DNA from: Crocinitomicaceae bacterium TMED16
GTDB taxonomy: Bacteria; Bacteroidota; Bacteroidia; Flavobacteriales_D; Crocinitomicaceae
NCBI GenBank assembly: GCA_002167775.1
Contig: NHBV01000026.1
Location: forward strand, 10,086-64,150
DNA length: 54,065 nucleotides
Direction of reading: 5' to 3'
The notes beneath the pieces are model-generated. The model was not told the DNA's origin and did not search any database. It saw only the letters and a program-made list of their open reading frames with translations. The position numbers were made by a program, and so were the translations under genes. Positions 18,477-51,713 of this stretch are shown piece after piece. Each line of letters starts with the position of its first letter. Positions within the stretch are counted from its first letter, which is position 1.

Positions 18477-20636
18477 TTAATGCTTAATGAATGTTAGCTG
18501 TCTCGTTTGTCCTTTATGCTTGAATTCAATGAGGTACATTCCTGCTGAATATTCCGTGCAGTCTATGCTGCCATTAACAATTTCAATTTCCCTTGATTTT
18601 CCTGAAAAATCTTTAAGTATGGCTTTCATACTCATGTTGTGAAGTTGATCTAAATACAATTTGTTGCGTACAGGGTTGGGGTAGACCTTAAAAGAGGATG
18701 CCTCGTTACTCTGACTTAAACCTAACTCTAAAGCTTCTCTCAAAGCGGCCATAGCATCTACTTTTCCGTGACCCCATTTAGGGTCTCCCTCGGCTGGAAG
18801 ATCTCCTGTTTTATTGTCCTCTCTGGCGGTTGATAGGAGAATTTGTTTTACCTCTGTTGCACTTAACTCAGGCTTTGCCTGAAGTAATAAGGCTGCTACA
18901 CCAGCGACTATAGGCGAGGCCATCGATGTTCCCGAAAGTTTCGCGAAATGGTATGTTCGTGTATTGAATTCTATACTCTCCACTGATGAAAAGGAAGCAT
19001 CTGTATAAGATGAAATAGCAGCACCAATAGATACGCCTGGGGCTGCAATGTCGGGTTTCATTAAGCCATCGTATCTAGGACCTTGGCTCGAAAAAGAGGC
19101 CATTGCACCACCTGTTGTCACTCCTGTAGGTGTTACCCATCCTGAAGCATAGGCAGCTACACTTATCACGTCCTCCGCACAAGAAGGTTCGCTAATTCCA
19201 TTTTCATTATCACCACTCATTGAACCGGTTCCATAAGCTGAAAATGGCATACCCCAATTTCCAACGTCATTGGTGAGTTCAGTAACATTCCAATTATGCA
19301 CTGTGCCTGAGTTAGCAGCTGATTTAAACATGACTCTGTAGGCACTTGAGGTACATTTTACACGCAAACGCATGTGAGGTCTTCCGTTCAATGGATGCAT
19401 GTTATCAGCAGAGATGTTGTACCAAATAGTGTCTATTTCATTGACTAGAAAAGTATCTATGTATGTATCAGTGTTTTGGGTTGAGTAATATGGCGTTTGT
19501 GCGACCACTTGACCACTTGTGTTTTTAATCTCTAATGCATTTGAAAATGTTTCTCCTACCTCGCCCCAGCTATGAATACTTTGTCCCCACATGTTTGGAT
19601 TTGCACTGTATGAGTAGAATTGTATTCTTGAGGCAATTGTATCTGATTCGAAAGTATGTTTAAGGTGAAAATTTACATTACCATTATTTCCTCCAGAATT
19701 CACAAAAACAACCCCTAAATCAGTGTATGCGGAAATAGCTGTGCTCAAAACGGAGTTTCCGTCTAGTGAACCAAGGTGATAAAGTCCCCAACTCATGTTT
19801 ATGACAAGTCTTTTTCCTTCCTCAACGGATTTTTGGTACATCCATTCCCATGCATCTAGCACTGCTCCCTCATCTACAAGGAATGTAACAAATAAGAATT
19901 GTACTCCAGGTGCAATTCCTTTGTAAGCTGTACCGACTGAACTTCCACCTGCAATGGAGGCGACATGCGTTCCATGTGTAGAATAACTATATATATTCGC
20001 TGTATCACTCCCGACAGAATTAAGCTCATTGGGCGTGTCAAATTCTGTTCCGTAGTCAAAATTATCTGGACTCGGTCCGCTGAGCTTATATTGGTCCCAT
20101 GCTGCCAAAATGCGTGTTTCTTGAAGGAGCGAGTCATAAAATACGGGAGAGCTATAATCGAACCCCCAATCTGTAACACCAATCAATATATTTTCACCAT
20201 CATATCCTTGTGGTAGGTTTCCAAGTCCTAGGTGAACTGAATCTGCATGGGTGTCAAAGAGTGCTTTGTCCAAGCATGGTTTTAACTTTCTTGACAGCGA
20301 AGCAAATTCAATATCTTCAAGCACTTTGAGCTTATTTATCTTTGAAAGAGGAAGTTTTAGATGCGCAAGACCGTTCACGCTAACATGCGCTTGACCTCCG
20401 AATGATTCAATTTGCTCCTGACTAAATCCATCCTTGGTCTTCGCTACAAGGCTCAAATAAAGTTTATTATGTTCATTGGTTAGTACATATTTGGTATTCA
20501 AGAGTTTCGTCGGGTCTTTTTTAAATTGTTGTTCAAGCGTGGATAAATCATGAAGATCCGCATTGCTCATAAAATTTTGCGCGTTCAGCATTCCGCATGC
20601 GCACAGAAATAAAGTAATATTTATAATGGTTTTCAT
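18477..20636 (-). CDS. secreted S8 family serine peptidase with T9SS type A sorting domain
   Basis: Subtilisin-like extracellular protease, 719 residues. A signal peptide (1-19, ending GMLNA) is followed by an inhibitor-like propeptide (about 30-120), then the catalytic domain with Asp156 (GVTDWGFD), His221 (STHGTHVASIAGG) and Ser571 (LSGTSMASPIVAGVAALLLQAKP). A long insert (about 320-470, beta-rich) lies between His and Ser. The C-terminus (FKVYPNPVRNKLYLDQL ... RQLTFIKH) is a type A T9SS sorting domain that would be removed on export. A -7 box ends four bases before the ATG, so the message is predicted leaderless. The acetyltransferase gene follows at once. Confidence 0.93.
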   Translation of the reverse strand: MKTIINITLFLCACGMLNAQNFMSNADLHDLSTLEQQFKKDPTKLLNTKYVLTNEHNKLYLSLVAKTKDGFSQEQIESFGGQAHVSVNGLAHLKLPLSKINKLKVLEDIEFASLSRKLKPCLDKALFDTHADSVHLGLGNLPQGYDGENILIGVTDWGFDYSSPVFYDSLLQETRILAAWDQYKLSGPSPDNFDYGTEFDTPNELNSVGSDTANIYSYSTHGTHVASIAGGSSVGTAYKGIAPGVQFLFVTFLVDEGAVLDAWEWMYQKSVEEGKRLVINMSWGLYHLGSLDGNSVLSTAISAYTDLGVVFVNSGGNNGNVNFHLKHTFESDTIASRIQFYSYSANPNMWGQSIHSWGEVGETFSNALEIKNTSGQVVAQTPYYSTQNTDTYIDTFLVNEIDTIWYNISADNMHPLNGRPHMRLRVKCTSSAYRVMFKSAANSGTVHNWNVTELTNDVGNWGMPFSAYGTGSMSGDNENGISEPSCAEDVISVAAYASGWVTPTGVTTGGAMASFSSQGPRYDGLMKPDIAAPGVSIGAAISSYTDASFSSVESIEFNTRTYHFAKLSGTSMASPIVAGVAALLLQAKPELSATEVKQILLSTAREDNKTGDLPAEGDPKWGHGKVDAMAALREALELGLSQSNEASSFKVYPNPVRNKLYLDQLHNMSMKAILKDFSGKSREIEIVNGSIDCTEYSAGMYLIEFKHKGQTRQLTFIKH

Positions 20637-26481: not shown

Positions 26482-27897
26482 TTATTTCTCAATAAACCTC
26501 ACCTCTACGCGTCTATTTAGCTTTCGCCCTTCACTTGAGGAATTATCTGCAATCGGAACTTTTTCACCAAATGCCTCAATAATTATTCTATCGGCACTTA
26601 TTCCATTGGCTAGTAAGAAGTCTTGAACGGCTGACACTCTATTTTTAGACAACATAACGTTATAGTTTTCAGGTCCTTGGGCATCGGTATGCCCTTTCAA
26701 AGAGATTTTTAGCTCACTTTTTGCATTTAATATATTCACAATCGACTCAAGTGCACCAAAGGATCCTTTTTGAACAACAGCTTTATCAAATTCAAATAGG
26801 ACATTCTTTTCAATCGGAATGAAGTCTTTCTTTTCTGCTTCTGCCTGTTTCACCTCTGCAATTTCTTCAACGGCGGCCTCAATGTATACCGTATCCACAC
26901 GCGTAATTACAATAGTATCCATCGCTGGAAGCTCCGTTATTTGCTCATTTCGTAAGGCGTTATTTGTGGTGTCTTGAGCTTCTTTGTTTGTCTCTGCAAT
27001 TTCTGGAATAGTTTTGGGCTTCTTTTTACAAAATTTTATTCCCAATAGAATCTCATGCGAACCGGAGCTGTATGATGCTATATTTGACATGGGTGTTTCA
27101 TACGCATATCCTATAAAGAATAAATCTTGTACTTGGATTCCAGCTCTGGCGATAAGTCCAACTGACGTTCGATATCCGAGCCCTCCAGAAATATATTTTT
27201 TATAAGTGGCATCCGCGTTAAGGTCAAGCTGATAACCATTATTGGTTCCTTTCGTGTATATCGATGGTGTCAACATCCAATTATCACCGATTTTTTGGTT
27301 GTAAGCAACCAAACCATTTAAGTGTCTTCTGAGCCCAAATCCATCAATGCCCGAAAAAGACATATTACTAGTAGATTGAATAAGTTGTTGAGAACCAATA
27401 CTAATCTCTAGATTTTTCCATTGATATAAAATTCCGATATTCGAATTAAGAGTCCCACCAGCTTGCTCCCCACCTTCAATAATTGGGTCCCCATTTTCGA
27501 AGGCAATAGCATTAGTGGCGTCGATACGATATTGATTGTAACCAACTGATGCACCAAGTCGTATATTATGAGTTTTACCTATAGTCAGTCCATAGGATAG
27601 AGAACCCATAGCGGATACCTGCTGAATCATTCCAATTTGATCAACAAGAACTTGCCCTCCGACGCCAAGAGATTTCCCAATCAAACCATTGGCACTGATC
27701 ATACTTGTAAGCGGTGCTCCTTCAACCTTCAACCATTGATTGAGGTGTGAAAAATTAATTTGCGTACATCCACTGGCACCTGAATAAGCCGGGTTAATGG
27801 CGTATTTATTGTACCCATATAGATTGCGTTGTGGAGTCTGTTGGCTATAAGAAACCAACGATAGTAAACAGATACTAAGTGAAATGATTTTTTTCAT
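26482..27897 (-). CDS. PorP/SprF-type T9SS outer-membrane protein fused to OmpA peptidoglycan-binding domain
   Basis: Outer-membrane protein of 471 residues. After a signal peptide (1-18, ending LVSYSQ) comes a PorP/SprF-type beta barrel (about 20-290) opening with the family hallmark NLYGYNKYAINPAYSGASG. A linker of about 70 residues (291-360) leads to an OmpA C-terminal domain (about 362-471: NVLFEFDKAVVQKGSF, LKGHTDAQGPENYNVMLSKNR, LNRRVEVRFIEK), with the Asp and Arg that bind diaminopimelate of peptidoglycan. PorP/SprF proteins are usually about 300 residues without OmpA. It starts six bases after the stop of the 1249-residue type B cargo gene and is probably that cargo's partner for surface attachment or export. 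Confidence 0.9.
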   Translation of the reverse strand: MKKIISLSICLLSLVSYSQQTPQRNLYGYNKYAINPAYSGASGCTQINFSHLNQWLKVEGAPLTSMISANGLIGKSLGVGGQVLVDQIGMIQQVSAMGSLSYGLTIGKTHNIRLGASVGYNQYRIDATNAIAFENGDPIIEGGEQAGGTLNSNIGILYQWKNLEISIGSQQLIQSTSNMSFSGIDGFGLRRHLNGLVAYNQKIGDNWMLTPSIYTKGTNNGYQLDLNADATYKKYISGGLGYRTSVGLIARAGIQVQDLFFIGYAYETPMSNIASYSSGSHEILLGIKFCKKKPKTIPEIAETNKEAQDTTNNALRNEQITELPAMDTIVITRVDTVYIEAAVEEIAEVKQAEAEKKDFIPIEKNVLFEFDKAVVQKGSFGALESIVNILNAKSELKISLKGHTDAQGPENYNVMLSKNRVSAVQDFLLANGISADRIIIEAFGEKVPIADNSSSEGRKLNRRVEVRFIEK

Positions 27898-27903
27898 GGT
27901 TTC

Positions 27904-30900
27904 TTATTTTTTAAGTCTTAATAAATTAATAGATCCCGTATAATCGGTATCACATCCCGTTATCGAATAATAGTAAACCCCATCCGGGAGCTGTTCATCG
28001 TCTTTGGTTCCTGACCATGTGTTTTCATAGCTATTGGACTCAAAAACAAGCTGACCCCACCGATTGTATATTTGAACAGTGCATCCTTGAATTCTATCGG
28101 GATATTTAATATTCCAAGTTTCGTTTATATTGTCTCCGTTTGGTGTAACAATATTGCTAATCTCTTGGTCGCAGAATGCAACACTAAGTTCTAGTCTTAC
28201 AATAGAATCACATCCGTCGGCTGCCGCAATTGTATCGTAATACACCCCAGCTTCCGTAAGTATGGTCCCATTGAAGTCATAAGTCTCATCGCTGCAGATG
28301 GAAATATCTGCCATATATCCGATAGGTGGATCTGTAACGAATACCGATAAATAAACAATCGAATCACATCCCAGCGGTGTCGTTAAAGTTTCAATATAAA
28401 CACCCTCTGTTGTAATCGTATTACCATTGAAGTCGTAGGACGCTCCCATACAAATCGTCATTTCATCGCTCGCGGTGATGGTCGGTAATAAAAATAGAGT
28501 AGAGGTAACAATGCTATCACAGCCATTGCTATTCACAAGGGTATCTACGTATACACCTTCGGTGTCGTAGGAGCTTGTTCCCACAGCTATAGAGGCTCCT
28601 GTACAAATTGTATATTCAGGACTGCTCTCAGTATGCGGTAAAATTGTAAGCGCAGTGATGACCGTACTATCACATCCCTGTGGCGTTACATAAACTTCCG
28701 AATACGTTCCCGCTTCTGTTTGATTTGCTCCCTCCAGGAATGCAGATTGCCCTGCACAAATCGATAGGTTCACATTGTTAGTTGTGGGTTCACATGGGTT
28801 TCCACAATTTGATGCATCATAGGTAAAACCAACCGAGCAAGCACCATCAGTTATATCAACGGAGTATATGCCCGCTGTTGGCGATAAGTAGGTGTAACCT
28901 GCACCAGGACTGACTTGACCTTGTTCTACAATTTCACCCAATGGGCTCGTTATTGTAAAGTCGTATGGGGTTCCGTAAAAGCCATTTAATCCGCCATCTG
29001 CAATGAATGTAACTGTACAAGTTGCGTCATCATATGCGAAAACCGGGGTGAGTTCTTGTAAATAAACAACAGGTTGTCCGTCTGAGGCAGTGGAGGTGAG
29101 GCATGAAAATTGTGCCCAATCTGAAGGGATATCAGCAGCAGGTGACAAGAAGTATACAGTATTAAACAATGGATTGCCTAGTGTTCCTGAGCCATCTGTG
29201 TTATTGGTAAAGCTACCGGACCCTTCCAATGACGCGATAATTGAATTTTCAAGTCCTGAACCTGAAACTGGAACTGGAACGGGATTTTGTTCATGTAATA
29301 TGTATCCTGGAGAAAGACAATCTGGAAAGCTTGCTGTCGATTCTCCTATACCGTTAAGCATCACACTTGGTGTATAGCTATCAGAATAGCATATAAAACT
29401 TGTATCTAGGTCTGTAGTTTGTATTACGTTTCCATTTGCAAGTGTAATTTCGGACATACCGGCATCGCTTTCGACTTCTTGTATGTATTCAATAATGTAT
29501 TGCCCTTCATCTCCTGATGAACCGCCGTCAATTTGAATCGCATATAATGTTCCCGGCGTCATACAACATGCTGATTCTTGGTTTCCTTCAAATCCTGCCT
29601 CGCCCTGAATGACGGGAGTAATTAATGGAGTGGATTGTGTTCCGTCTTGTGTAAAGGTTGCCGGTCCCAGACCTCCATAACAATCCGTCCCATTGAGAAG
29701 CTCATATATGTTGTAACGAACTGTATCTAATCCAACATAGGCTCTAACACTAATCTCAACTGCTCCCGATGGTGGAGCTGTAAAGTAATGCCAAACCGTT
29801 TGATTTGCGCAATTTGCCGGATTCGTTGAAGCATCAGGTTCCCCTGCCAGGTATTCCTTACATGCGAGTACATTGCTTCCAGAAACAGCTTGAAAGGTAG
29901 GATCCGTTCCTGCGAGTATAACAGGGACCTCGTATAATGTATCTTGAAGTGCGAGGCAAAGAATATCATTCCCTGGGGAGTTGAATGATGGATCAGATAA
30001 ACTAGGGTCATACAACCAGCTTTTCATTTCTGTTGAGGAGAAAGGGTCGATAATATTGGCCGGATCAATCATTCCATAATAATTGTACCCCGGCTCTAGG
30101 CAATAATTGGAGACAATTGCACTTTCATTTCCGCCAAAGAATCCATTCAAGCCACCCTCAGCGCCGGATAAGAATTCAAGGTTTGCACAAGTGTAATCAG
30201 ATGGAGTTCCCGGTGCAAATCTTTTATCAAAGCCATATAATGCATTGTGCTCTGCATATAAAATACTGCCGTAATCCGCCTCAAAGACAACTCTTCCTGA
30301 GTTAGGAGCTGTAAAATTTAGCCAAATACTTTCGTTCATATTCCCATTATTCTGAGCACCTTGATCATAATCATAGGCGTGAAAGTTATTAGGATTGGTT
30401 CCGTTTGTGGCACCACCAGTTTCACCTTTATCATTTCCGGAGTTAAATGCACATTCAAAGTCAATGGTTGTTGTTTGCGTATCACCATTCGCAGCACTTA
30501 TTGCATTTGTTCCAAGTATAACATTACCCGATTGACAAGGTATATCGTCTCCAGAACCGGAGCTACCGCCAACATCATTGACGCGAATCTCCACAAGTCC
30601 CGATTGGTCATTTCCATCAGATGCCATTTGAACGTAGTAAGTCTCTCCTGCAATTAATTTGGTATAGCTGATAAGTGGAATGGGATTACAGGCATCAAAG
30701 GTGAGCTCGGCTTCAGGATCAATACCAAGAAGATCTATTCCATCAGCGAATTCGATATGAGAAAGATATTCGAATTTATCTTTAATTAAGTTACCTGAAA
30801 TAGGTTGCAATCCAGCAGAACAGTCTTGTCCGTCAGCGGCATGGTATAATTGGAAATAGGTACCTATTTCGGTACCTCCAAGATCGGAGGTGATCTCTAC

Positions 30901-31653
30901 TGAACCACTTCCTGGTGCTACGAATTTAAACCACGATGATGCGTCGGTATTGTCAACATCTCCTGCATTTGGTTCTCCCGTTTCAAGAGTAGCACTTGAG
31001 CAAACAGCTACGTTGTAGCTTGTGTTTGTATTCACGAGAAGCGCATCGCATATGTTATCAGGCAGTAACGTTATTCCTGTTGCTTCAACCACGGTAACTT
31101 CAAATACGATCTCATAATTCTGTGTTCCGCAGCCGCCGCCAGAACCATTAGCAGAAAAAGTGGTAACAGTGGATCCCGGAGCTCCGGAAACGGGAATGCT
31201 TACGTTTTGAGGTCCAGTTTGTAAATCTGAAAAACCTCCTGTCAAATCCCAATTGAAAAATGGATCGTCGTTTTCATAAGCTTGCCATGAAATATTTATT
31301 TGTGAAGGAATGTCTGATGGGCAGGCATACAGATGATTGAAGAACAGATCGTTGGGGCTGCTGTTCCAAGGTCCATTATTATTGTTGTTGTTTTGAAAGT
31401 TAAACTGTCCTGTTAAACCAAAAGCAACTGGGTTGTTGTTGCTAAAGCCTAGGGTGTTATCTGAGGCTGCGTATTCAAAAGCAAAATCAGAATCTCCAGT
31501 AATATCAAAGAACAGGTTATCGCAATCTATATTCTGAAGTACAGATACGCTTAAAGTACGGACCTCGATGTAGACTTGGGATATGAGTGTTTGGGAAATA
31601 AAAATGAAAATGGCACAACATGCCCAATGGATGGGGGTAAAAGTTTTTCTCAT
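27904..31653 (-). CDS. T9SS type B cargo, gliding-motility-associated C-terminal domain protein
   Basis: Large secreted surface protein of 1249 residues. A signal peptide (about 1-26, ending LISQ) is followed by an Asn-rich N-terminal domain (27-195) and several Bacteroidota beta modules with the WFKFVAPGSGSVEI, IWLNFTAPNSGRVVFEADYGS and VWHYFTAPPSGAVEISVR patterns (about 195-770). A middle region (about 780-960) precedes four repeats of about 51 residues (962-1158). The C-terminus (NIVTPNGDNINETWNI ... VQIYNRWGQLVFES ... LPDGVYYYSI) is the CHU_C/type B T9SS sorting domain. No enzyme motif is seen; adhesion is a reasonable guess. It heads an operon with the PorP-OmpA fusion. Confidence 0.9.
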   Translation of the reverse strand: MRKTFTPIHWACCAIFIFISQTLISQVYIEVRTLSVSVLQNIDCDNLFFDITGDSDFAFEYAASDNTLGFSNNNPVAFGLTGQFNFQNNNNNNGPWNSSPNDLFFNHLYACPSDIPSQINISWQAYENDDPFFNWDLTGGFSDLQTGPQNVSIPVSGAPGSTVTTFSANGSGGGCGTQNYEIVFEVTVVEATGITLLPDNICDALLVNTNTSYNVAVCSSATLETGEPNAGDVDNTDASSWFKFVAPGSGSVEITSDLGGTEIGTYFQLYHAADGQDCSAGLQPISGNLIKDKFEYLSHIEFADGIDLLGIDPEAELTFDACNPIPLISYTKLIAGETYYVQMASDGNDQSGLVEIRVNDVGGSSGSGDDIPCQSGNVILGTNAISAANGDTQTTTIDFECAFNSGNDKGETGGATNGTNPNNFHAYDYDQGAQNNGNMNESIWLNFTAPNSGRVVFEADYGSILYAEHNALYGFDKRFAPGTPSDYTCANLEFLSGAEGGLNGFFGGNESAIVSNYCLEPGYNYYGMIDPANIIDPFSSTEMKSWLYDPSLSDPSFNSPGNDILCLALQDTLYEVPVILAGTDPTFQAVSGSNVLACKEYLAGEPDASTNPANCANQTVWHYFTAPPSGAVEISVRAYVGLDTVRYNIYELLNGTDCYGGLGPATFTQDGTQSTPLITPVIQGEAGFEGNQESACCMTPGTLYAIQIDGGSSGDEGQYIIEYIQEVESDAGMSEITLANGNVIQTTDLDTSFICYSDSYTPSVMLNGIGESTASFPDCLSPGYILHEQNPVPVPVSGSGLENSIIASLEGSGSFTNNTDGSGTLGNPLFNTVYFLSPAADIPSDWAQFSCLTSTASDGQPVVYLQELTPVFAYDDATCTVTFIADGGLNGFYGTPYDFTITSPLGEIVEQGQVSPGAGYTYLSPTAGIYSVDITDGACSVGFTYDASNCGNPCEPTTNNVNLSICAGQSAFLEGANQTEAGTYSEVYVTPQGCDSTVITALTILPHTESSPEYTICTGASIAVGTSSYDTEGVYVDTLVNSNGCDSIVTSTLFLLPTITASDEMTICMGASYDFNGNTITTEGVYIETLTTPLGCDSIVYLSVFVTDPPIGYMADISICSDETYDFNGTILTEAGVYYDTIAAADGCDSIVRLELSVAFCDQEISNIVTPNGDNINETWNIKYPDRIQGCTVQIYNRWGQLVFESNSYENTWSGTKDDEQLPDGVYYYSITGCDTDYTGSINLLRLKK
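28180..28770 (-). repeat. four tandem protein repeats of about 51 residues (GCDS repeats)
   Basis: Within the type B cargo, residues 962-1158 hold four copies of the pattern ICxGxS-x(3)-NG-x(3)-TExGxYxxTL-x(4)-GCDSIV-x(3)-L. The distances between successive GCDS motifs are 51, 51 and 52 residues. Each copy has two Cys that may form a disulfide. Such units are typical stalks next to type B sorting domains. Confidence 0.8.
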
Positions 31654-48774: not shown

Positions 48775-48799
48775 AAAGCCTCCTTGCGAGGCTTTTTTT
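48775..48799 (+). terminator. terminator of the ribosomal protein operon, probably bidirectional
   Basis: Perfect 8-bp stem AAAGCCTC/GAGGCTTT with a CTTGC loop (48775-48795), followed by a run of T to 48799. In the opposite direction it is followed by four T after the histidine-kinase-like gene, whose stop codon (48798-48800) touches the T-run. Confidence 0.88.
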
Positions 48800-51713
48800 A
48801 TGCGTGGTATTTTTCCTTTTTCTGCGGTATGGAGATCGTAAATATGTTTTTTTCTGGAGCAGAGTCGATTTCCAGCTCGCCTTTTATTTCAGCAACGATT
48901 TTTCGTACAATTTTAAGGTTTAGATTTAGTTTTCTGTCCTTATTTTCGTCATTTCCGCCAATATTTTGAATGTCGTCAACAATATATTTTTCGATTTGTG
49001 GACCATTAAAGGCGTAACGAACAATGTCTTGGCCATTCTCTGACGAGTAGTCAAAGTTTATGATTCTTTCATCATTATCTGTATTGAAGTTATTGCATGC
49101 CATCATAAACATATTTTTCCAAAGCTGATGTAATTTTGATTCTACGGCTTTAATTTCTGCATTCTCTGGAATATTGATTGAAATTTGAGCATTGTCCATT
49201 TTATATTTATACACTGCAAGAATGGATTGTATGTTCTCGGCTAGCTTTACAGCTACTTTTTCATTCTTATCTTCTTTTTTCGCGAGCTTTGTGAGCTCCT
49301 TAACGACATCTGTTGCGCGTGAGCTTGTCTTCGAAATAGTTTCTGAAAAGGACATTGATTGTTGTATTCTTTTGATTAGGTCCAGCAACTGAATTGGATA
49401 CTCATGTTGCAGGACGTAATCCATCTCCTTTGATTTATACATAGGAAAACTAGATTCAACAAATTTCGTGGCAATCGTATCGATTGAATTGTTGGAATAG
49501 GATTTTGATTCAAGAAGTAATTTGAATTCAAGTGCTCTTTTTCGTTTTTCTCTTCCATTAATGAACTGCTCCATTTCATTTGACTTTGCAAATTTAAGTG
49601 CGAATTCAAAATCTTCATGGCTTAAGGAGCCATTTAATTTAATTTCCAGTATATCTCTGATAATATCTTTCATGGCCGTAGCACCCGAATTTATTATACC
49701 AAAGGGAGTGTTTAGCTCATGGGAAATGGCATTGGCCATATCTGCTAGTAGAGATTCCTTTTCTTGTTCATGATACTTATGGGTTAGCTCATTGATTTGC
49801 TTAGATTTCAAGAAAACTTCGTCTTCCAATTTCTGATTCATTTCATAGAGCTGTTTTTGAAGAATTTCTTTTTGTTTTTGCTCTTGTATTTTATCGAGAC
49901 GGCTGGCAAGTAAAGATGATATAGAGGTCAGAACCTTAATGTGCGATTCGTTAAAAAAGTGTGCTTCGACATGTTCTAAACGAATATATCCCACAAGCAA
50001 ACTGGATATGCGCAGAGGTACCGTCAGCTTTGACTTCATGATCTCTCTATTATAATTGTGGTCATCCTGCAAGATATATTTTGCATCTCCGATACTTTGA
50101 ATGAATCCTTCTGCGATGCTCTTATTTTTAAAATTTGTGATTTCAAAGACACCATCATTTTCATTCTCAAACACATGGATACCGCATTTCGAAACCTCAA
50201 AGTCTCTAATGATATGGTTGCTTATGGTGTTTAGCAGACTATAGTAATCCGTTTCGTCATGAATGGTCTGGGACAGAAGGTTTATGGTTGTTTGGGTTTT
50301 TAGATCTCTTGCTTTTCTTTCTTCGGATTCTATTTTCGCTGTAACATTACTAATGAAAGCGACACCTTGACTGTTTCCATTGGTATTAATCTTTGTGAAA
50401 GCTACTTCAAAAAATAAGTTATTTTCAATCGACCTCATTCTATGCCGTTTGTTGTTAAGGTCGTTGTGTCCGTCCTTATATAATTTTTTGATAAACGTTT
50501 CCAAGTCCTTGTCCGCAAGAAACATGAGTATATCACAAATGTTTGTAGGTTTAGCGCTACTTTCAAGGTTAAAATACTTAAGGGACTTTCGATTGTAATC
50601 CAAGACCTCACCGTCCCAATTGAAAAACAAGATAGCGTCAATTGCATTTTCAATGACAAGTCTTGTGTTCTGTTCTTTTAGCTGAAGATCACTAAGCGTT
50701 TTTTCAAGTTCCTGCGTCCTTTGACTCACAATTGTTTCTAATTGCGATATTTCCATACGAAGCTCGATGCTTTCATATTCCTGTGTGTATTTTTGCTCAT
50801 TGAGCTTTGCTTCGATTTCTTTATGTCGCTTAAATGCATAAAGCGCATTTTTAAGGTTCCCATCAACTTCGCTCAGTTCTCCATAATGCTTATATACTTC
50901 AGCTTCAATATCCATTGATACTTTTAGAAGCGCTGGAGAGGTAAGTCCACTATTTTCTTTAAAATCTATTTCTTTTGATGCGTTATGTACAGTGTCTATT
51001 TCATCTATTGCCATTCTTATAACTTCAATTGCTTTGAGATTGCGATTCATTTTATGTAAGCACCTTGAAATAAATAGAATATTGGTAACCTCGATACCTT
51101 TCGAATTATTAAGTATTGCGTTCTTTTTGCTTTGCTCGAATTGAAGTATGGCCTCGTCATATTGTTTATTGTAATAATAAACTTCTCCAAGATTACATGT
51201 TACAACCGAGTGCATAAAACAATCATCAATATTCAACAGCGAAAGACATTCTTTAAAAAATGAAATGGCTTCCTGATATTTTTCGAGCTTTGTATAGCAG
51301 TCTCCCGTATTATTTAATGTTCGAAGAATCCAATCCTCTTCATTTAACAGGCGACTTATCGCCAAACATTTTTGATTTACCTCAAGACGCTCCTCTTGTT
51401 TGCCCAGGTGATCGAGTATAAATCCAAGCGTATGATAGACATGAGCAAGGTTTTTTTGATCCCCATTTGCTTCGAGTACTTTAATGGCTTTTGTGGCATA
51501 TTGGTATCCTTCAGGGATTAATCCGAGAAGCTGGCTCGCAAAAGCGAGATTTCTCAGTGATTCACCTATACCTTGCCCGTATTCAATATCTTCTACTTTT
51601 TTCAGTAGCTCTATTGATTTATGGAATCCTACTTTTGGGTTGGTTTTACATATAGAAAGGTATTCAGCATTCTTCTCATCAATTTCACTTTGGACCTTAT
51701 TTCCCTTGATCAT
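48798..51713 (-). CDS. TPR-PAS-GAF sensor histidine-kinase-like protein with degenerate ATP site
   Basis: A 971-residue cytoplasmic sensor-like protein. Domain order: TPR repeats (about 10-300; GYQYATKAIKVLEANGDQKNLAHVYHTLG, YQEAISFFKECLSLL), a coiled coil (about 310-345), PAS (about 345-465; AIDAILFFNWDGEVLDYNRKSLKYF), GAF (about 480-610), a second coiled coil and a histidine-kinase dimerisation domain with intact H-box (ISHELNTPFG, His665). The ATPase region is poor: the N-box reads WKNMFMMACNN with Met where the Mg-binding Asn should be, the G1 box DxGxG is replaced by FNGPQI, and the G2 glycines are lost (LNLNLKIV). No response regulator is adjacent and no membrane segment is present. Confidence 0.88.
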   Translation of the reverse strand: MIKGNKVQSEIDEKNAEYLSICKTNPKVGFHKSIELLKKVEDIEYGQGIGESLRNLAFASQLLGLIPEGYQYATKAIKVLEANGDQKNLAHVYHTLGFILDHLGKQEERLEVNQKCLAISRLLNEEDWILRTLNNTGDCYTKLEKYQEAISFFKECLSLLNIDDCFMHSVVTCNLGEVYYYNKQYDEAILQFEQSKKNAILNNSKGIEVTNILFISRCLHKMNRNLKAIEVIRMAIDEIDTVHNASKEIDFKENSGLTSPALLKVSMDIEAEVYKHYGELSEVDGNLKNALYAFKRHKEIEAKLNEQKYTQEYESIELRMEISQLETIVSQRTQELEKTLSDLQLKEQNTRLVIENAIDAILFFNWDGEVLDYNRKSLKYFNLESSAKPTNICDILMFLADKDLETFIKKLYKDGHNDLNNKRHRMRSIENNLFFEVAFTKINTNGNSQGVAFISNVTAKIESEERKARDLKTQTTINLLSQTIHDETDYYSLLNTISNHIIRDFEVSKCGIHVFENENDGVFEITNFKNKSIAEGFIQSIGDAKYILQDDHNYNREIMKSKLTVPLRISSLLVGYIRLEHVEAHFFNESHIKVLTSISSLLASRLDKIQEQKQKEILQKQLYEMNQKLEDEVFLKSKQINELTHKYHEQEKESLLADMANAISHELNTPFGIINSGATAMKDIIRDILEIKLNGSLSHEDFEFALKFAKSNEMEQFINGREKRKRALEFKLLLESKSYSNNSIDTIATKFVESSFPMYKSKEMDYVLQHEYPIQLLDLIKRIQQSMSFSETISKTSSRATDVVKELTKLAKKEDKNEKVAVKLAENIQSILAVYKYKMDNAQISINIPENAEIKAVESKLHQLWKNMFMMACNNFNTDNDERIINFDYSSENGQDIVRYAFNGPQIEKYIVDDIQNIGGNDENKDRKLNLNLKIVRKIVAEIKGELEIDSAPEKNIFTISIPQKKEKYHA

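Follow-up and report, generated by a model that had tools for sequence, protein, structure and literature searches.

A PorP/SprF barrel fused to an OmpA domain: a probable one-polypeptide wall anchor for type B cargo of the type IX secretion system

For the holding of type B cargo of the type IX secretion system (T9SS) at the cell surface, two ideas have been published: a separate PorE anchor, which would keep the cargo static, and a disulfide to a track, as used for gliding adhesins. In Porphyromonas gingivalis, the PorE-PorP-PG1035 complex carries a type B cargo on a PorP barrel, to which an OmpA-type wall binder is linked; small amounts of PorK and PorN co-purify with it, and PG1035 has been speculated to cap PorP (PMC9143113). 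Two type B cargos rely on cognate carriers, and static, wall-bound complexes have been speculated for such cargo (PMC12618676). SprF, by comparison, bonds to GldK via the cysteines of a Cys-X-Cys tail (PMC12635249). This report examines a related arrangement in a 54,065-nucleotide stretch of DNA (the window) from Crocinitomicaceae bacterium TMED16 (assembly GCA_002167775.1, contig NHBV01000026.1, positions 10,086 to 64,150), in which a PorP/SprF barrel and an OmpA domain share one polypeptide encoded directly behind a type B cargo gene.

Both genes lie on the minus strand. The cargo gene (27904..31653; 1249 amino acids) comes first, followed by a six-base spacer between its stop and the carrier start (27898..27903), and then by the fused carrier gene (26482..27897; 471 amino acids), which encodes a PorP/SprF barrel, a linker and an OmpA domain. 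The original observation of a 471-residue fusion six bases behind a 1249-residue cargo is borne out by the open reading frames (ORFs) and by the Pfam and NCBIfam domains of both proteins, and the carrier's architecture also by an AlphaFold model. The pair, with its single cargo, is flanked by metabolic genes; promoter and terminator scans across it returned about as many sites as shuffled sequence. The 471-residue protein is probably a carrier dedicated to this type B cargo, which it would tie to peptidoglycan in cis; it is best read as a one-polypeptide version of the PorE-PorP-cargo complex. At the SprA translocon, the barrel would take up the cargo by the cargo's C-terminal sorting domain and then retain it at the cell surface. 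The carrier's own OmpA domain, connected by a flexible linker (58-80 residues), would grip peptidoglycan and so hold the cargo in place.

The first 18 residues of the carrier resemble a signal peptide, as judged by eye. The barrel part (residues 19-290; 27028..27843, minus strand, like all features below unless stated) is matched by Pfam PorP_SprF (PF11751; residues 18-286, E 3.8e-57, 194.3 bits against a cut-off of 22.3), and the protein scores 211.2 bits with the PorP/SprF family model TIGR03519 of NCBIfam (cut-off 90.55). The AlphaFold model, built from 46 aligned rows, has a mean predicted local distance difference test (pLDDT) score of 75.6 and a predicted template modelling score of 0.54. 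It contains 14 predicted barrel strands, the first at residues 45-53 and the last at 280-289, in agreement with the FadL-type barrel expected of the PorP/SprF family. Fold matches to the barrel include FadL (Z 25.4) and chains F of the T9SS translocon entries 8gl6 (Z 25.2) and 6h3i (Z 24.2), both of which we take to be PorV.

The linker (residues 291-362; 26812..27027) is covered by the model and by an alignment of 60 complete fusion rows, over which all residue counts given here were made; L207 and L219, cut at the 3' end, and L238, cut at the 5' end, were excluded. Residues 293-358 fall below a pLDDT of 50 and are predicted to be disordered, and the span from after Cys290 to the OmpA domain varies between 58 and 80 residues among the rows. 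Two D-T-x-x-I elements occur in the linker, with D327 conserved in 53 and D335 in 55 of the 60 rows.

The OmpA-like peptidoglycan-binding domain occupies residues 363-471 (26485..26811), forms an alpha/beta domain at residues 363-470 of the model, and is matched by Pfam OmpA (PF00691; residues 367-462, E 3.5e-18, 66.2 bits, cut-off 27.2). Fold matches include 3td5, an OmpA domain solved with a wall peptide (Z 18.1), and 6top, the C-terminal domain of PorE. With the PorE model NF052230, the carrier reaches 66.5 bits against a cut-off of 600, through its OmpA part only, and does not rank as a full-length PorE. Asp405, in a GHTD motif (26683..26685; Asp in 52 rows, Cys in 8), and Arg420 (26638..26640; Arg in 60/60) occupy positions which, mapped from Acinetobacter baumannii OmpA, we take to contact meso-diaminopimelic acid, so that both residues expected for peptidoglycan contact are present in the window protein. 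The proposal that the added domain fixes the carrier, and with it the cargo, to the wall agrees with these residues and forms part of the best reading. We infer from the sequences that the fusion would recognise its cargo, display it and bind peptidoglycan.

Cys44 (27766..27768), immediately before strand 1, and Cys290 (27028..27030), immediately after strand 14, are conserved in all 60 rows and are the only cysteines of the mature window carrier. They likely form a disulfide at the barrel seam in the predicted structure, since strands 1 and 14 should adjoin in a closed barrel. In a set of 123 barrels, both cysteines are present in 32, one in 7 and neither in 84 (20, 6 and 67 in a smaller set of 93). 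Their co-occurrence on the tree comprises six independent pairs (3.2 in the same direction, 0.2 in the opposite one, 2.6 with no difference) and is not significant.

These cysteines also bear on whether the carrier rides the gliding track as SprF does, with the OmpA domain serving assembly, stability or transient braking. Membership in the SprF family and the position of Cys290 directly behind the barrel would suit such a role, which we nevertheless regard as very improbable. SprF uses its tail Cys-X-Cys (PMC12635249), whereas no linker cysteine occurs in any of the 60 fusion rows and a tail of that type is absent; Cys290 co-occurs with Cys44, as expected for an internal disulfide, and was rejected as an SprF-like track cysteine on these grounds, though the tree offers just six independent pairs and no significance. 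Because SprF's tail cysteines are missing, the complex of carrier and cargo is probably static.

The cargo is adhesin-like by eye, with Cys-Asp-Ser repeats ahead of a CHU_C, or type B, sorting domain at residues 1164-1233 (27955..28164). The Pfam match (PF13585) has an E value of 3e-23 and 82.2 bits (cut-off 27), and the type B model TIGR04131 of NCBIfam scores 59.5 bits (cut-off 35). TIGR04183, which models type A, is barely over its cut-off (23.6 against 23), far weaker than type B. The translocon protein SprA is encoded in the same genome (TIGR04189, 2355.3 bits).

Orthologs of the carrier were sought in 80 related genomes, including the window's own, of which 48 belong to the same genus. 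Full-length fusions with 47-95% identity were found in 22 of these 48; beyond them, a further ortholog is split across contig ends, another is a fragment, and a third, with 31% identity, belongs to another family. No close ortholog was found in several same-genus genomes rated 99-100% complete, such as G011, G015, G020, G022 and G048, the other negatives being partly from incomplete genomes. In L013-L037, where L013 is the window, the C-terminal pattern of the preceding gene is type B-like in 25 of 25. A further scan of named genomes, of which the best 80 of 171 matches were kept, gave 78 loci, 62 with the OmpA fusion. Type B cargo lies 1-45 base pairs (bp) upstream in 61 of these 62, the last being cut by a contig end, so that the predicted pairing of fusion and type B cargo is conserved. 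L230 and L249 break off before the OmpA domain is reached; the PorP genes of L250-L263 are unfused and likewise follow type B cargo. The hosts are mostly uncultured Flavobacteriales, with some Crocinitomicaceae and Crocinitomix and one UBA952. An artefact of frame or assembly was rejected, as full-length orthologs occur in many genomes (the 22 same-genus genomes and the 62 named loci).

Of 53 cargo ORFs from the core clade, 42 align from near the N-terminus to the end of the window cargo, with 47-96% identity, and the remaining 11 are truncated or shorter. Similarity is confined to the sorting-domain end in eight distant loci (L240-L245, L247 and L248). Carrier and sorting domain thus stay together while the passenger can change.

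The window's own genome holds 12 matches to PF11751, some at contig edges or duplicated, and two of these are OmpA fusions. The second, L002, combines PorP, TSP3-like repeats and an OmpA domain in one protein, with type B cargo upstream; in its relative L048, TSP_3 exceeds the Pfam cut-off. A split form also exists (L001/L060), in which cargo and PorP are followed by a protein that combines PD40, SprB repeat and OmpA domains, scoring 109 bits with the PorE model, below its cut-off of 600. In L007/L061, PorP has no cargo in sight and is followed by a protein with an N-terminal, sub-cut-off PorE match and no Pfam OmpA match. Other PorP copies adjoin a GldJ-like gene (L004/L005) or a GldK-like gene (L006), the GldJ and GldK models matching truncated ORFs below cut-off; the former PorP ends in I-S-C-P-S-F, which gives it a third cysteine, and the latter in H-P-R-W-L. 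L010 (contig C16, 160-1842, minus strand) is a 560-residue ORF whose C-terminal half is PorP-like and whose N-terminal half is unrelated; by eye, the neighbouring gene resembles one for a sigma factor. Match scores are equal or near-equal between the contig pairs C28/C49, C19/C27, C4/C8 and C12/C36, which suggests a strain mixture or unresolved repeats in the assembly.

This distribution speaks to the idea that the fusion is a core part of the secretion or gliding machinery, its OmpA domain attaching secretion rings or tracks to the wall in the way proposed for PorE-PorP with PorK and PorN. The small amounts of both proteins co-purified with PorE-PorP-PG1035 (PMC9143113) point in this direction; a core component would hardly be full-length in just 22 of 48 same-genus genomes and missing from some rated 99-100% complete, the genome has other PorP copies by GldK-like and GldJ-like genes, and the window gene sits with one cargo among metabolic genes. 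We consider a core role quite improbable.

At class level, 296 genomes were searched with a fusion profile and the matches sorted by score; the results are best matches and do not give a frequency. Besides the window, 29 loci were obtained: 16 OmpA fusions, 12 fusions to a SPOR-like domain, and one unfused. Type B cargo was seen upstream in 23 of the 28 fused ORFs. PorP/SprF fusions are widespread across the class, most with type B neighbours and 5 of 28 with no cargo seen. Spacers between barrel and tail include coiled-coil-like stretches (by eye, with weak Pfam matches), TPR (L293) and, in L289, two CarboxypepD_reg stretches that join PorP to an OmpA domain. A phylum-level sample contained few PorP genes. 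That the fusion is confined to the window's lineage was rejected, as it occurs across the class with OmpA or SPOR-like domains; and with a second fusion, of different build, and a split version in the same genome, it is more widespread than first assumed and no isolated oddity.

SPOR-like tails were found in seven proteins of the same order and in the 12 class-level loci, with type B cargo upstream in 19 of 19. Six such tails all match Pfam SPOR at E values up to 1 (best 4.5e-9). When nine whole proteins were scanned, three exceeded the Pfam cut-off (L044, L282 and L285), and for L043 no SPOR match was found at E 0.05. A profile of the six tails, run against PDB sequences, matched a sole SPOR protein, 1x60 (E 0.069). 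Since these matches are partly weak, the tails are called SPOR-like rather than SPOR. Sequences gathered in this analysis were the basis of the local hidden Markov models for the barrel, OmpA, the type B domain and SPOR. Because SPOR domains recognise denuded septal glycans (PMC6895207), surface proteins carried by SPOR-like fusions are predicted to be placed at the septum.

A tree of the 123 barrels unites OmpA type I (14 rows), the SPOR-like type (7) and three further rows in a single starred set and places the fusion type with TSP3 and OmpA elsewhere. Two separate origins of the OmpA fusion have a log-likelihood 34 better than one origin and are favoured, with a single origin not rejected by the approximately unbiased (AU) test (p 0.074).

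The exchange of tails is relevant to a further alternative, namely that the fusion is mainly a structural tether between outer membrane and wall, a stand-in for OmpA, with the cargo as a minor cap or passenger. OmpA domains in general tether the outer membrane, and this lends the alternative some weight. So does the cap role speculated for PG1035 (PMC9143113). Yet the barrel is of the PorP/SprF type, with 14 predicted strands; related carriers have a SPOR-like domain in OmpA's place; and the core-clade cargo is conserved at full length (the 42 of 53 noted above), which a mere cap would not need. A purely structural role therefore appears unlikely.

If the fused domain is a wall anchor in cis, carriers without it might use a separate one. 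A survey covered seven genomes of the window's order, including two of its genus; 91 of 114 matches were included as PorP ORFs (L093-L183), leaving out the 23 lowest-scoring, and one 599-residue ORF in L104 was dropped. The hand-picked L184 and L185 were excluded from tail counts, and L063-L092 enter no count. Three of the 91 are fused, and 63 are cargo-linked, 60 of these unfused. A separate OmpA gene starting within 200 bp downstream, overlaps allowed, adjoins 30 of the 60 unfused cargo-linked carriers and none of 61 fused ORFs, which comprise 54 OmpA and 7 SPOR-like fusions with at least 2.5 kb of downstream sequence (14 with less were left out). With overlaps limited to 60 bp in both sets, the counts are 28 of 59 and 0 of 61. 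Fisher values near 1e-11 are overstated, as many of the 61 are orthologs and the rows are not independent. Cis and trans wall anchors, that is, the fused domain and a separate OmpA gene, appear to interchange, a view also favoured by the split form L001/L060 beside two fusions in the window's own genome and by L289.

The tails of these carriers differ as well. Many short-tailed PorP/SprF proteins end in P-R-[F/Y]-[F/L] (for example L114, L127, L128 and L133). Among cargo-linked carriers with P-R-[F/Y], an OmpA-domain gene is directly downstream or overlapping in 19 of 20, and it is possible that this ending is a docking tag for PorE-like proteins. Over all 91 ORFs, a downstream OmpA gene accompanies 19 of 27 with P-R-[FYWIHV] near the end and 15 of 64 others (Fisher p 4e-5), the pattern having been drawn up after the tails had been viewed. 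On the tree, the association is not significant, with four independent starred pairs (on average 2.4 the same way, 0.0 the other, 1.6 with no difference), or three when restricted to cargo-linked ORFs. Cysteine-tailed carriers have an OmpA neighbour in 5 of 29 cases, against 29 of 62 for the others (p 0.01), and six independent tree pairs give no trend for such avoidance.

Several observations weigh against a dedicated, wall-anchored carrier. Half of the unfused cargo-linked carriers (30 of 60) have no adjoining OmpA gene, so that an adjacent wall binder is no general rule. Five class-level OmpA fusions have no cargo in sight upstream within the fetched flank. The genome holds 35 CHU_C matches, 30 of them above cut-off, against 12 PorP matches, some of which are fragments or duplicates; carriers must therefore be shared, and the term 'dedicated' is based on adjacency. 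In exactly the eight distant loci with exchanged passengers, Asp405 is replaced by Cys, with Asp as the next residue in seven, and wall binding in these proteins may differ. Finally, all locus counts come from related, non-independent sequences.

With these points taken into account, anchoring of the cargo in cis is still regarded as probable. A broader proposal, put forward tentatively and with more doubt than confidence, is that the PorP/SprF C-terminus acts as a modular address tag, determining the place and manner in which a type B protein is held: an OmpA domain would specify static wall sites, a SPOR-like domain the stripped-glycan wall of the septum or young pole, a cysteine tail the moving track, and P-R-[F/Y] docking to a separate PorE-like anchor, with the window protein being self-anchoring. 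The union of carrier and wall-binding domain in one chain gives gene-fusion support to the idea of a PorE-type anchor, and in a two-gene system anchoring becomes testable via removal of one domain.

Two further genes of the window may be mentioned: 18477-20636 encodes a subtilisin-like S8 peptidase that bears a type A T9SS sorting domain, and 48798-51713 a 971-residue TPR protein with weak, sub-cut-off GAF and histidine-kinase ATPase matches.

Among known systems, OmpA/OprF-type porins consist of an outer-membrane barrel and a periplasmic OmpA domain. The fusion follows a similar plan (matches 5u1h and 3td3-5); unlike these porins, its barrel is of the 14-strand FadL/PorV type and is paired with a secreted cargo. 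SprF-SprB resembles the window system in that a PorP/SprF barrel carries a type B adhesin, but the Cys-X-Cys tail of SprF bonds GldK on a moving track, whereas the tail of the fusion is free of cysteines and includes a wall binder (PMC12635249). In Flavobacterium johnsoniae, Fjoh_3952-3951-3950 (PorE homolog, cargo and SprF-like carrier) has the cargo gene directly ahead of the carrier, as in the window; such type B operons have three genes, and the window system two (PMC12618676). PorE-PorP-PG1035 shares with the window a type B cargo, a PorP barrel and an OmpA-type wall binder. In that complex, the wall binder is a separate lipoprotein, while the window carrier supplies it as its own C-terminus and has neither TPR nor propeller; the CarboxypepD_reg and OmpA parts of L289 correspond to the C-terminal domain types of PorE (PMC9143113). 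Widespread as the fusion is, no report of PorP/SprF joined to OmpA or SPOR was found in the literature searched, which covered few subscription papers and no preprints; the architecture may be listed in domain databases. A separate PorE as the wall anchor of type B cargo has already been published or proposed (PMC9143113, PMC12618676), and the new part is the anchor in cis, on one polypeptide.

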